Positions 11,568 through 13,900 of a stretch of 64,000 nucleotides of DNA are shown here, one piece after another; position 1 is the stretch's first letter, and each line of letters starts with the position of its first letter. The notes beneath the pieces were generated by a model. It worked only from the letters and a program-made list of their open reading frames with translations, made no database searches and was not told where the DNA came from. The DNA comes from Rhodococcus sp. IEGM 1381 (GTDB lineage: Bacteria > Actinomycetota > Actinomycetes > Mycobacteriales > Mycobacteriaceae), in assembly GCF_030056795.1 (NCBI RefSeq), contig NZ_JASHKQ010000001.1:1798001-1862000 (forward strand). Direction: 5' to 3'. A program made the position numbers and the translations under genes.

Positions 11568-11873
11568 TCAGACTCCGACGGTGACGTTCGCCGAGTGCAC
11601 GCCTGCACCCTCGGGAGCGATGACGGTGTCGCCGTTGCCCGATGCCGACAGTGCGCGCAGCGTCCACTGGCCGGGAGCGGCGAAGAAGCGGAAGTCTCCG
11701 GTGCCCGACGCGACGACCTCGGCGGTGAACTCGCCGGTGCCGTCGAGCAGACGCACGAATGCTCCTGCTACCGGCTCACCGTCGCCGGCGAGGACGCGGC
11801 CGGTGATGACCGTTTCCTTCTCGACGTCGACGCCTGCGGGGATGGTCTGGCCCTGTACGGGTGCTCCACACAT
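11568..11873 (-). CDS. sseC: SseC-type DUF1416 protein of the sulfurtransferase operon
   Basis: A 101-residue protein starting MCGAPVQGQ at ATG 11873, one base after the sseA stop region. It belongs to DUF1416, called SseC in mycobacteria (Rv0814c), where it always follows the thiosulfate sulfurtransferase gene. The sequence has a beta-sandwich character typical of carboxypeptidase-regulatory-like folds (VITGRVLAGDGEPVAGAFVRLLD, then FRFFAAPGQWTLRAL). The biochemical role is unproven, and the context points to sulfur transfer. A longer in-frame ORF to 12152 exists only because the reading frame stays open across sseA and is rejected. Confidence 0.85.
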   Translation of the reverse strand: MCGAPVQGQTIPAGVDVEKETVITGRVLAGDGEPVAGAFVRLLDGTGEFTAEVVASGTGDFRFFAAPGQWTLRALSASGNGDTVIAPEGAGVHSANVTVGV

Positions 11874-11874
11874 A

Positions 11875-12711
11875 TCAGTGAACCTCCAACTCGATGGGTG
11901 CTCCGACGAGGGAGCCGTATTCGACCCAGCTACCGTCGTAGTTCTTGACGTCTTCCTTGCCGAGGAGCTCCTTGAGGACGAACCAGGTGTGGCTCGAACG
12001 CTCACCGATGCGGCAGTAGGCGATGGTGGCCTTGTCGTCGTCGTAGCCCTTGGTCTTGTACAACTCTTCGAGCGCGTCGTCGGACTTGAACGTGCCGTCC
12101 TCGTTGGCGGTGGTGCTCCACGGGATGTTGATCGCCGACGGCACATGGCCACGCTGCTGAGCCTGCTCTTGCGGGAGGTGAGCCGGGGCGAGGATCTTGC
12201 CCGAGAACTCGTCGGGCGAACGCACGTCTATCAGGTTCTTGTTACCGATGGCGTCGATGACCTCGTCGCGGAATGCACGGATCGACAGGTCGGGAGCTTC
12301 GGCGCGGTACTGCGTGTTCTCCCGGCTGACGACGTCCTTCGACAGCGCGCGTCCGTCGAGTTCCCACTTCTTGCGTCCACCGTCGATGAGCTTGACGTCC
12401 TTGTGGCCGTAGAGCTTGAAGTACCAGTAGGCGTAGGCGGCGAACCAGTTGTTGTTTCCGCCGTACAGAACGATGGTGTCGTCGTTGCTGATGCCCTTCG
12501 CGGACAGCAGGTCCGAGAACTGCTCCTGGCCCAGGAAGTCACGGCGAACCGGGTCCTGCAGGTCCTTGCGCCAGTCGAGCTTGACCGCACCTTCGATGTG
12601 TCCGCCGTCGTAGGCGCTTGCGTCTTCGTCGACCTCGACGAAGACGGTCTTCGGTGCGTTCAGGTTCTGCTCGGCCCAGTCGGCAGAGACCAGGACGTCG
12701 GAGCGAGCCAT
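11875..12711 (-). CDS. sseA: Thiosulfate sulfurtransferase (rhodanese)
   Basis: A 278-residue two-domain rhodanese that moves a sulfane sulfur from thiosulfate to cyanide or protein thiols. The N-terminal inactive domain holds DEDASAYDGGHIEGAVKLDW. The C-terminal catalytic domain has NLIDVRSPDEFSGK and the active-site loop with cysteine in IAYCRIGERSSHTW (about residue 233). GAAAGGAAC lies just before the ATG at 12711. The gene sits between the DUF4395 gene and sseC on one strand, matching the cysA2-sseC2 arrangement of mycobacteria. The group is preceded by a cysteine-rich leader peptide (13336-13422), suggesting control by cysteine supply. Confidence 0.93.
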   Translation of the reverse strand: MARSDVLVSADWAEQNLNAPKTVFVEVDEDASAYDGGHIEGAVKLDWRKDLQDPVRRDFLGQEQFSDLLSAKGISNDDTIVLYGGNNNWFAAYAYWYFKLYGHKDVKLIDGGRKKWELDGRALSKDVVSRENTQYRAEAPDLSIRAFRDEVIDAIGNKNLIDVRSPDEFSGKILAPAHLPQEQAQQRGHVPSAINIPWSTTANEDGTFKSDDALEELYKTKGYDDDKATIAYCRIGERSSHTWFVLKELLGKEDVKNYDGSWVEYGSLVGAPIELEVH

Positions 12712-12754: not shown

Positions 12755-13228
12755 TCAGTGCGAGGTGCTGCGCAGTCGCGCCGCGAGGGGGTAGATCATG
12801 CACCCGAGGCAGACCGCGAACGCAGCGTTGAGAAACGCCGCGAACAAGGCGAAGCCTGCTGCCACGGTGCCGACGACAGGAGAGCCGAGCGCGAAGCCGA
12901 GCACTCCCACGGCGGCGAACGCGAATCCCACCAGCTGAGCGAACTTCAACGGAGCCACCGGCTCGCGTTCGCTGGTAGGGGAGAGTCGCGGAGCGACGAA
13001 CGTCGCGTAGATCGTGCCGTACGGACTGTGCTTGGGTCCGCGAACGGCTCCGATTCCGAACACGATCGCCTGTAGCCCGAGCAGGATTGCCGCCGCGGGG
13101 ACCGAGAACGTGGTCAGGAGAAGTACGACGACCAGAACGGCCGTGGTGATCCACGCTGCGAAGCGAGGGCCGCGGACGTCGACCTGGTCGATCGTGGGGG
13201 AGTCGGTGTGGGTGTCGGGTGTCGACAT
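12755..13228 (-). CDS. DUF4395 membrane protein
   Basis: A 157-residue membrane protein with four hydrophobic segments and a central cysteine motif (VCLGCMIYPLAARL) near the C-terminus. That pattern is typical of DUF4395 proteins, which co-occur with rhodaneses and thioredoxins. It is the first structural gene of the DUF4395-sseA-sseC group. AGGAG is 9 nt upstream of ATG 13228. The CxxC pair and the neighbours suggest a role in membrane redox or sulfur transfer, but function is unproven. Confidence 0.8.
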   Translation of the reverse strand: MSTPDTHTDSPTIDQVDVRGPRFAAWITTAVLVVVLLLTTFSVPAAAILLGLQAIVFGIGAVRGPKHSPYGTIYATFVAPRLSPTSEREPVAPLKFAQLVGFAFAAVGVLGFALGSPVVGTVAAGFALFAAFLNAAFAVCLGCMIYPLAARLRSTSH

Positions 13229-13335
13229 CGAGAAGTACTCCTGTGCGAGGCCGGGGCACGCTACATGGGCAGTGCTCGGACGTGGATTCCTGTCTTGAGG
13301 CCGACATCACGCATGGGCGTGGCGGCAGAAGGAAA

Positions 13336-13422
13336 TCAGCAGCAGCGACAGCAACATCCGCCCAGTCGGCACAGATCAACCGTGCGTCGACTGGTGAGCA
13401 TCAGCTCGTGGCGGGAGAACAC
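13336..13422 (-). CDS. Cysteine-rich leaderless leader peptide (attenuator uORF)
   Basis: A 28-codon ORF beginning at GTG 13422 and ending in a cysteine cluster: ...RRTVDLCRLGGCCCRCC stop. A TAGGAT -10 hexamer lies exactly 7 nt upstream (13430-13435) and a TTCGAC -35-like element 17 bp further up, so the transcript should start at the GTG (leaderless). In mycobacteria, leaderless polycysteine ORFs before sulfur-metabolism operons act as cysteine-responsive attenuators; here the downstream operon is DUF4395-sseA-sseC, 107 bp away. An internal ATG at 13401 would give a 21-residue version. Seven cysteines in 28 residues, six of them in the last six non-Arg positions, argue against chance. Confidence 0.85.
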   Translation of the reverse strand: MFSRHELMLTSRRTVDLCRLGGCCCRCC

Positions 13423-13429
13423 GAAGAGC

Positions 13430-13458
13430 ATCCTACCCGCTACCAGCGGCGCGTCGAA
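13430..13458 (-). promoter_or_regulatory. Promoter of the sulfurtransferase operon (leaderless)
   Basis: TTCGAC and TAGGAT are separated by 17 bp on the minus strand, with 7 nt from the -10 box to the GTG of the leader peptide. This is the standard geometry of a vegetative actinobacterial promoter producing a leaderless mRNA. It lies in the gap downstream of the thioredoxin gene, so the sse operon has its own promoter. Confidence 0.7.
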
Positions 13459-13480
13459 CCGCCGGCCCGATCGGGTGCGG

Positions 13481-13900
13481 TCAGAGTGCGTCGAGCGCAG
13501 AACGCAGAGCCGCCGCGGAGGGAACCCCCGCGATTCTGGAGCGCCGACGCAAGTCGGTGTCGAGCACGAACGTGGTGGGCAACGACAGCACTCCCAGCTC
13601 GCGGGCGAGAACCGGATGGGCATCGATGTCGAGCTCCACTTCGCGGGCCCCGCTGCGATCGTTCAGTACTTGCCCTACGACGCGACGGACGGCCGCGCAC
13701 GGTCCGCACCAGTCCGCCGAGAAGTGCAGCACGGTCGCGGTGTCGGTCGTGATGCCGGCCTCGAGTAACAGTGGGCGTACAGCGTCGGTGTCGGAGCCTG
13801 TGTCTCGTACGGCGCGTACGGTGCCGGAGCGGCTTCGGAAGTACAACCCGGTAGCGACGGCAAGGACCGCCACGACCAACAATACTGTGATCCCTGTCAC
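13481..13900 (-). CDS. thiX: Membrane-anchored thioredoxin-like protein (ThiX type)
   Basis: A 139-residue protein with one N-terminal transmembrane helix (MTGITVLLVVAVLAVATGLYF) and a thioredoxin domain carrying the active-site WCGPC (about residue 68) and the cis-proline segment SLPTTFVLD. It probably faces the extracytoplasmic side or is tethered to the membrane. The GTG start overlaps the lmeA stop by 4 bp (GTGA), so the two are translationally coupled, as in mycobacterial Rv0817c-Rv0816c. It would provide dithiol-disulfide exchange next to the sulfurtransferase operon. Confidence 0.85.
   Translation of the reverse strand: MTGITVLLVVAVLAVATGLYFRSRSGTVRAVRDTGSDTDAVRPLLLEAGITTDTATVLHFSADWCGPCAAVRRVVGQVLNDRSGAREVELDIDAHPVLARELGVLSLPTTFVLDTDLRRRSRIAGVPSAAALRSALDAL

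Follow-up and report, generated by a model that had tools for sequence, protein, structure and literature searches.

A probable cysteine-responsive leader peptide before the DUF4395-sseA-sseC operon of Rhodococcus sp. IEGM 1381 and a recurrent TGT codon in its relatives

The window, a 64,000-nucleotide stretch of contig NZ_JASHKQ010000001.1 from Rhodococcus sp. IEGM 1381, carries on its minus strand a short open reading frame (ORF) that opens with the GTG at 13422-13420 and runs for 28 codons to the TGA at 13336, encoding MFSRHELMLTSRRTVDLCRLGGCCCRCC according to the sequence and the list of ORFs. The original prediction had placed a promoter (TTCGAC and TAGGAT, 17 nt apart, with the GTG following after 7 nt) in front of this ORF, and this arrangement was confirmed on the minus-strand sequence. 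The 28-codon leader ORF, the spacer of 107 nt from its stop codon to the ATG of the DUF4395 gene (13228) and the DUF4395-sseA-sseC order behind it were likewise confirmed, by the sequence and by Pfam. A thioredoxin-like gene upstream of the leader ends at 13481. The elements of the locus are as follows:

13453..13458, minus strand: -35-like element TTCGAC, seen in the sequence and visibly not conserved among relatives
13430..13435, minus strand: -10 box TAGGAT, separated by a 17-nt spacer from TTCGAC and lying 7 nt before the GTG, seen in the sequence
13336..13422, minus strand: leaderless-type leader ORF, from sequence, NCBIfam matches and its retention in relatives
13375..13389, minus strand: core RRTVD of the leader, codon 0 to codon +4 of alignment A1
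13348..13350, minus strand: TGT codon 25 of the leader, which is codon +13 and Asp+9, a Cys codon in 83/83 family leaders
13238..13241, minus strand: GGAG, the Shine-Dalgarno (SD) core before DUF4395, embedded in GCACAGGAGTA, seen in the sequence
12755..13228, minus strand: DUF4395 protein, the first gene after the leader (Pfam PF14340, 140.6 bits)
11875..12711, minus strand: sseA, a rhodanese-type sulfurtransferase (Pfam PF00581)
11568..11873, minus strand: sseC, a DUF1416 protein (Pfam PF07210, 145.6 bits)

The best NCBIfam match of SseA is 3-mercaptopyruvate sulfurtransferase, at a score under the cut-off of that model. We take the DUF1416 gene at 11568..11873 to be sseC from general knowledge; its PF07210 scan used 11568-11870, and the upstream ATG was taken from the ORF list. 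The leader had been described as ending in six cysteines. Six Cys codons are indeed present, at positions 18, 23, 24, 25, 27 and 28, but five of them lie within the last six codons and the remaining one belongs to DLC; codons 23-24-25 read TGT-TGC-TGT. A sigma-70 promoter scan called no promoter at the leader locus, and neither the Pfam search of the leader ORF nor the Rfam search at the leader returned a match.

A DUF4395 match was found in all 37 genomes of the genus and in 181 of the 201 family genomes searched, and we read 90 family loci, 50 returned by the search and 40 picked by hand. An ORF with the pattern RRxVDLCR lies upstream of DUF4395 in 83 of these 90 loci, and a looser search added L060 and L061, which carry RRALDQGR, so that the leader is present in 85/90 family loci and in 85 of the 86 with close DUF4395 matches. 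The loci without it are L042, a close match whose genome has a leader of this kind at another place (L118), and L085-L088, which are remote DUF4395 matches with 32-36% identity. In a second, named collection, the leader was found by the pattern VDLCR in 77 of 80 loci (not in L168, L200 and L208), from the genera Rhodococcus, Rhodococcoides, Mycobacterium and Mycolicibacterium. The start codon of the 83 RRxVDLCR leaders is GTG in 82 cases and ATG in one; a TANNNT element lies exactly 7 nt before it in 76/83 loci and 6-8 nt before it in all 83, compared with 29 of 8300 random positions, a spacing that argues for a leaderless arrangement. Two single leaders that were recognized by their Cys content alone have another residue in place of Asp, namely Glu in L236 and Gly in L237.

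Alignment A1 comprises 81 of the 83 rows, L062 and L063 being left out; the rows here and throughout are related, and p-values therefore overstate. The comparison of relatives bears out the predicted leader in its place before DUF4395 (85/90 loci) and shows a Cys codon at +13 (83/83 family leaders), and the emphasis laid on the Cys run fits the family, but many relatives outside the family lack such a run. Codon +13 is TGT in 64 and TGC in 19 of the 83 leaders, or TGT in 49 and TGC in 16 of the 65 distinct ones. Codon +11 is stricter, with TGT in 59 and TGC in 2 distinct leaders (n = 61), and codons +6, +12, +15 and +16 are mostly TGC.

The window leader was matched by two curated models. NF042934 (cis_reg_atten, 'putative leader peptide') gave 28.4 bits (E 8.7e-07), above its cut-off of 27, and NF042933 (leader_Ms5788A, an equivalog) gave 39.2 bits (E 4e-10), below its cut-off of 45; formally, the leader is therefore a member of NF042934 only. 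In an NF042934 scan of its own genome, the same leader scored 26.6, or 27.3 with neighbours. NF042934 is a motif model without a stated mechanism, the profile of which ends with a Cys at Asp+9, as found in the window leader.

Place and sequence suggest that the window leader is the counterpart of the Ms5788A leader. The Ms5788A/cysA2 sORF and the window ORF are both short ORFs of the leaderless type, which for the window is judged from the spacing behind the -10 box alone, and both have a cluster of Cys codons at their end, near the stop. A sulfurtransferase operon follows in both, the mycobacterial gene order being taken from general knowledge. The window differs from Ms5788A in its NF042933 score (39.2 vs 45 bits) and in an SD that shows no clear complementarity with the Cys codons. 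The leader kind itself is already known from mycobacteria, and the mycobacterial cysteine attenuator is thereby placed in Rhodococcus-type genomes. Shell 2015 (PMC4633059) describes, ahead of cysA2/Msmeg_5788, an sORF in which Cys codons cluster at the C-terminal end, together with robust ribosome occupancy of this sORF and the downstream genes at the M. smegmatis locus. PMC13236596 cites Canestrari 2020 for cysteine genes of M. smegmatis being under translation attenuation, and PMC9094748 likewise cites it for cysteine-dependent regulation. Seliverstov 2005 (PMC1262725) predicted leaders with a Cys run ahead of cys operons in Mycobacterium and P. acnes and ahead of cbs in B. longum; as in the window, the Cys codons lie near the stop and no terminator was found, and Rho was proposed there, a prediction that the authors themselves termed weak. 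The LEU element before leuA in the same paper is similar inasmuch as a run of codons for the sensed residue is suggested to base-pair with the first gene's SD, but it concerns leucine, involves a pseudoknot and precedes other genes.

In our view the window ORF probably encodes a cysteine-sensing leader peptide of the Ms5788A/cis_reg_atten kind, through which translation of DUF4395-sseA-sseC would be controlled. Ribosomes would start on the 5' GTG of the leader and, as long as Cys-tRNA is plentiful, finish the leader and depart, after which the 3' end of the leader, or another stretch of it, might pair with the SD and keep translation of the operon poor. When Cys-tRNA is short, the ribosome would wait with a Cys codon in the A site, probably the UGU of codon 25 or 23, and the waiting ribosome would cover the pairing stretch, leaving the SD free for the sulfur genes to be made. 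In the mycobacterial system, the work of Canestrari 2020 (Mol Microbiol) is said to have described an anti-SD in the leader that is masked by the stalled ribosome. The conserved place and sequence, the promoter spacing, the NF042934 score above the cut-off and the absence of a terminator-like site support the attenuator reading, which is weakened by an SD accessibility equal to that of controls, by the lack of an SD signal in the window's clade and by the unreached NF042933 cut-off. The mycobacterial analogy drawn in the original prediction has thus kept its core, which is backed by the conservation of the leader, the leaderless-type spacing, the place before the operon and the curated models, but two particulars are not supported, the role given to RLGG and the anti-SD in the spacer.

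On the RNA side, no terminator-like site was found in 13100-13700 (0.3 in shuffles), and thus no intrinsic terminator of the classical-attenuator type between leader and first gene. Pairing and accessibility of the SD were computed for 80 family rows, with loci having spacers >200 nt left out. Pairing between SD core and poly-Cys tract has a mean probability of 0.37 compared with 0.10 in SD-flank shuffles, with higher values in 59/80 rows, whereas the unpaired SD amounts to 0.210 versus 0.220 in shuffled controls (39/80 rows higher, p 0.41); with accessibility not reduced relative to these controls, the SD appears to be differently paired rather than more buried. The duplex energy between SD and poly-Cys tract is better than the shuffle mean in 61/73 rows (L065 was left out because of a misassigned SD), and 17 of the 73 reach p <= 0.05 singly against their own shuffles. 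By group, this holds for 45/47 rows outside the genus, 12/16 in one part of the genus and 4/10 in the window's clade. The window itself shows no gain (-14.4 vs -15.4 in shuffles), and pairing of the SD with the poly-Cys tract in its clade is 0.067 vs 0.075 in the control. No conserved SD partner was found for the window's clade, which leaves the anti-SD structure expected in the 107-nt spacer without support; the window SD folds mostly with its own spacer, and the full 219-nt leader has an unremarkable fold stability (z -1.08). A modelled stall at Cys24 raises SD accessibility from 0.21 to 0.26 over the family rows, with a rise in 51/80, and lowers it slightly in the window (0.23 to 0.22). SD sequestration is thus plausible for this kind of leader, the window copy being without an SD signal. 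Outside the family, shuffles that keep the SD core were beaten in 26 of 32 rows (the 34 leaders described below minus L249 and L252, which have no SD-like start). The leader ends with YCCTGA in 19/32 of these rows and UCAGGA occurs in the SD region in 18/32, so that the stretch that may pair with the SD often lies at the leader stop codon, where it would be expected to be covered by a ribosome that has stalled a few codons upstream.

Within the leader mRNA, two local hairpins were examined:

13396..13407, minus strand: short hairpin GAGC-UGAU-GCUC, 98.8% of cells paired, no covariation
13369..13385, minus strand: hairpin GCACGG-UUGAU-CUGUGC, which an outer stem encloses in this genus, 100% of cells paired in 60 distinct rows

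Together, 99.5% of the cells of both hairpins are paired, without improvement on shuffles and without any double compensatory change. Local structure of the leader mRNA nonetheless exceeds that of synonymous controls (mean z -1.8 in the family, 37/37 below; -0.91 outside, 22/29), and part of the conservation may therefore reside in the RNA, since this structure goes beyond what the peptide dictates. CUGUGC, the codons of DLC, was considered as an anti-SD and dropped, with a mean SD pairing of 0.0004 vs 0.0025 in the control; it pairs instead with the leader's own GC[AG]C[AG]G. The dinucleotide CA precedes GGAG in 76/81 leaders and in 0/19 control genes of the window, a comparison of little weight, since control starts were picked mechanically and a good number of them may be incorrect; L032 and L065, with misassigned SDs, were left out of two family comparisons including the SD context. 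Each half of the downstream SD region, GCACAGGAGT in the window and GCGCAGGAGC in many relatives, has a look-alike in the 5' arm of one of the two hairpins (GAGC and GC[AG]C[AG]G), as if these arms were decoys of the SD. Clade-specific stem-loops follow directly 3' of the leader stop in L049, L071, L073, L074, L075, L089 and L090, and examples of spacer stem-loops seen by eye are CGGTCGGC...GCCGACC and GGAACAGC...GCTGTTCC.

Outside the family, we read 49 DUF4395 loci (9 returned by the search and 40 picked to spread, with 22 families among the matches) and counted as a leader an ORF in which R[RA]x[VI]D is preceded by Leu and a stop comes within 28 codons, requiring no Cys. Leaders by this motif were found at 34 of the 49 loci; the 15 missed by the strict motif include L241, regained by a looser search, and all five loci of family f4. 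The Cys run is absent in these 34 leaders, which contain one (11 leaders), two (9), three (12) or four (2) Cys codons from codon 0 on. Codon +13, or Asp+9, is a Cys codon in 33/34, and in all 33 it is TGT; it is the sole Cys codon from codon 0 on in 10/34, and L265 has its single Cys elsewhere. The remaining 40 Cys codons of the same ORFs comprise 35 TGC and 5 TGT, giving a Fisher p of 1.2e-15 for the bias at +13, uncorrected for phylogeny, and the Cys codons of the available DUF4395 genes behind these leaders are TGC in 58 and TGT in 10 cases. In L241, which reads RRLAVD, the TGT stands at Asp+9, keeping its spacing from Asp and changing that from RR, and TGT is likewise found at Asp+9 in L060 and L061, the family leaders with RRALDQGR. 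The constancy of R0, [VI]3 and D4 in the 34 leaders follows by construction because these positions were part of the search motif. Arg1 occurs in 34/34 even though Ala was allowed, Arg7 in 32/34, Leu12 in 28/34 through three codons (CTC 17, CTG 7, TTG 4), and codon 8 is V in 22/34 and otherwise L, A, M or T. Positions outside the motif that are kept as residues via several codons show selection on the residues. The residues after DxxR vary outside the family, which argues against RLGG as the stalling or pausing context that had been proposed. In arrest peptides such as SecM and TnaC, the stall codon stands at a set distance from conserved residues. A fixed spacing between residues and codon is found here as well, with Asp+9 as the putative stall codon; the window kind would differ in having cysteine limitation as the trigger and in an arrest that is so far presumed.

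Leaders of other operons were collected with NF042934, and TGT at Asp+9 was set as the expectation beforehand. The set of 63 leaders, mostly from other operons and genera, consists of 23 of 28 loci beyond the own genome and 40 of 44 further matches; L117, L119, L129, L131 and L142, all DUF4395 leaders of the family, were left out (the first four having TGT, TGT, TGC and TGC at Asp+9). Of the 63, 57 have TGT at Asp+9 and none has TGC; they amount to 52 distinct peptides, 47 of them with TGT. The six misses are stop codons in L309, L310 and L311, GGG in L306, and L121 and L132, in which the Asp was misassigned and the match is probably false, respectively, both being counted as misses. A Cys residue at Asp+9 is circular in this set because NF042934 ends with that Cys, but the preference for TGT over TGC is not; the crude background of Cys codons in the set is TGC 127 and TGT 78. 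Over the phylum, NF042934 matched in 17 of 246 genomes at E <= 0.001, with 13 above the cut-off, and the claim of a wide spread therefore rests on the DUF4395 loci. In the own genome, the scan gave seven matches at E <= 10, of which five were kept, including the window's leader; the four others score 18.6-24.1 bits, below the cut-off, and the same loose scan matched in 10 of 14 control genomes. These four are:

L111, own genome G000, C20:12478: before a family-5 solute-binding protein
L112, own genome G000, C27:85263: before a nitrite/sulfite reductase
L113, own genome G000, C41:123552: close to a gene that gave a partial FMN-monooxygenase match
L114, own genome G000, C36:40950: before a symporter of the Na:dicarboxylate family

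All five own-genome leaders have TGT at Asp+9, and the four listed form a candidate set of cysteine-controlled loci. The two other matches were regarded as chance: L115 at E 0.27, in which Asp+9 was read by eye as Ser, and L116 at E 4.5. A DLCR-like pattern occurs 19 times in the own genome compared with 6 times in the reversed control, and among these matches the window's alone looked like a leader.

How the leader might act can be read in several ways. A peptide that matters as a product, that is, a small Cys-rich protein serving as a metal or persulfide carrier and not as a sensor, could account for amino acids being kept over most of the ORF, but the TGT/TGC choice at Cys positions is fixed beyond the need of a protein, and 32 of the 34 outside-family leaders contain only 1-3 Cys, which is unsuited to a metal-binding cluster; we regard this as very improbable. 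That the ORF is short and has no Pfam match might even suggest chance or annotation noise, a reading refuted by the conservation, with the promoter spacing and the curated models also against it, and of practically negligible probability. Transcription attenuation, in which a stalled or absent ribosome would determine whether transcription terminates (intrinsically or through Rho) or continues into DUF4395, follows the proposal of Rho for Cys-run leaders in Seliverstov 2005 (PMC1262725), described as weak by its own authors; it is unlikely in view of the 0 terminator-like sites in 13100-13700 (shuffles 0.3) and of the SD complementarity in most relatives, which points to translation.

A further reading refines the cysteine-attenuator explanation and does not exclude it. 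Inside the exit tunnel, a nascent chain of the type [LF]-x-[KRQS]-R-R-x-[VIL]-D-x-x-R might prime a pause at the UGU at Asp+9, which low Cys-tRNA would turn into a stall, the Cys run being a later elaboration of the family; the constant spacing between Asp and the codon is in keeping with action of the nascent chain inside the tunnel, and we rate this reading somewhat below an even chance. It draws on the Asp+9 TGT in 33/34 leaders outside the family, found with a motif silent on Cys, on its retention in L060, L061 and L241, on TGT in 57/63 and TGC in 0 of the other-operon leaders and TGT in all five own-genome leaders, on the predominance of TGC at the remaining Cys codons of the outside-family ORFs (35 vs TGT 5), on Leu12 kept through three codons in 28/34, and on the stop codons exactly at Asp+9 in L309, L310 and L311. 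Several observations weigh against it: R0, [VI]3 and D4 were search criteria, and L236 and L237 have Glu and Gly for Asp; in the family, +11 is more strictly TGT (59/61) than +13 (49/65); the leader mRNA has structure beyond that dictated by the peptide, so that part of the conservation may be RNA; and the NF042934-found leaders are circular for the Cys residue at Asp+9, with GGG in L306.

UGU is the Cys codon read by wobble. Extended to the whole bacterial class of the source organism, the nascent-chain reading would put sulfur operons under one kind of leader, in which RRxVD, once it sits some 9-13 residues back from the residue added last, primes a stop at a single UGU (not UGC) at Asp+9, the Cys run is dispensable and the stalled ribosome masks an anti-SD at the leader end; a few leaders would have replaced the UGU by a stop codon at the same place. 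We put this class-wide reading forward tentatively, with the balance of probability leaning against it. If true, it would describe a nascent-chain-gated aminoacyl-tRNA sensor that is read at one wobble-decoded codon, and the run of codons for the sensed residue would be the form that a wider sensor takes in one family. The working parts to which it points are the UGU nine codons behind the conserved Asp and the RRxVD motif, and why UGU and hardly ever UGC stands at Asp+9 would become a question of one base. In the literature covered, we did not find the UGU/RRxVD rule and the Asp+9 codon pattern in print; Canestrari 2020, which lay outside this coverage, may discuss them.

Family searches gave no clear family for the genes behind L309, L310 and L311. 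The stop codon that stands exactly at Asp+9 in these leaders (with the locus centre at ~601-660 in match orientation) is TAG in L309 and TGA in L310 and L311, and arrest possibly occurs here at termination rather than at a cysteine codon. In family f4, none of the five DUF4395 loci read (L269, L270, L279, L285 and L287) has a leader before DUF4395. Genomes of f4 carry the leader before a rhodanese-type gene, recognized by Pfam at L314 and by the same N-terminus at L316, L317 and L319, and in these genomes the leader seems to follow the sulfurtransferase.
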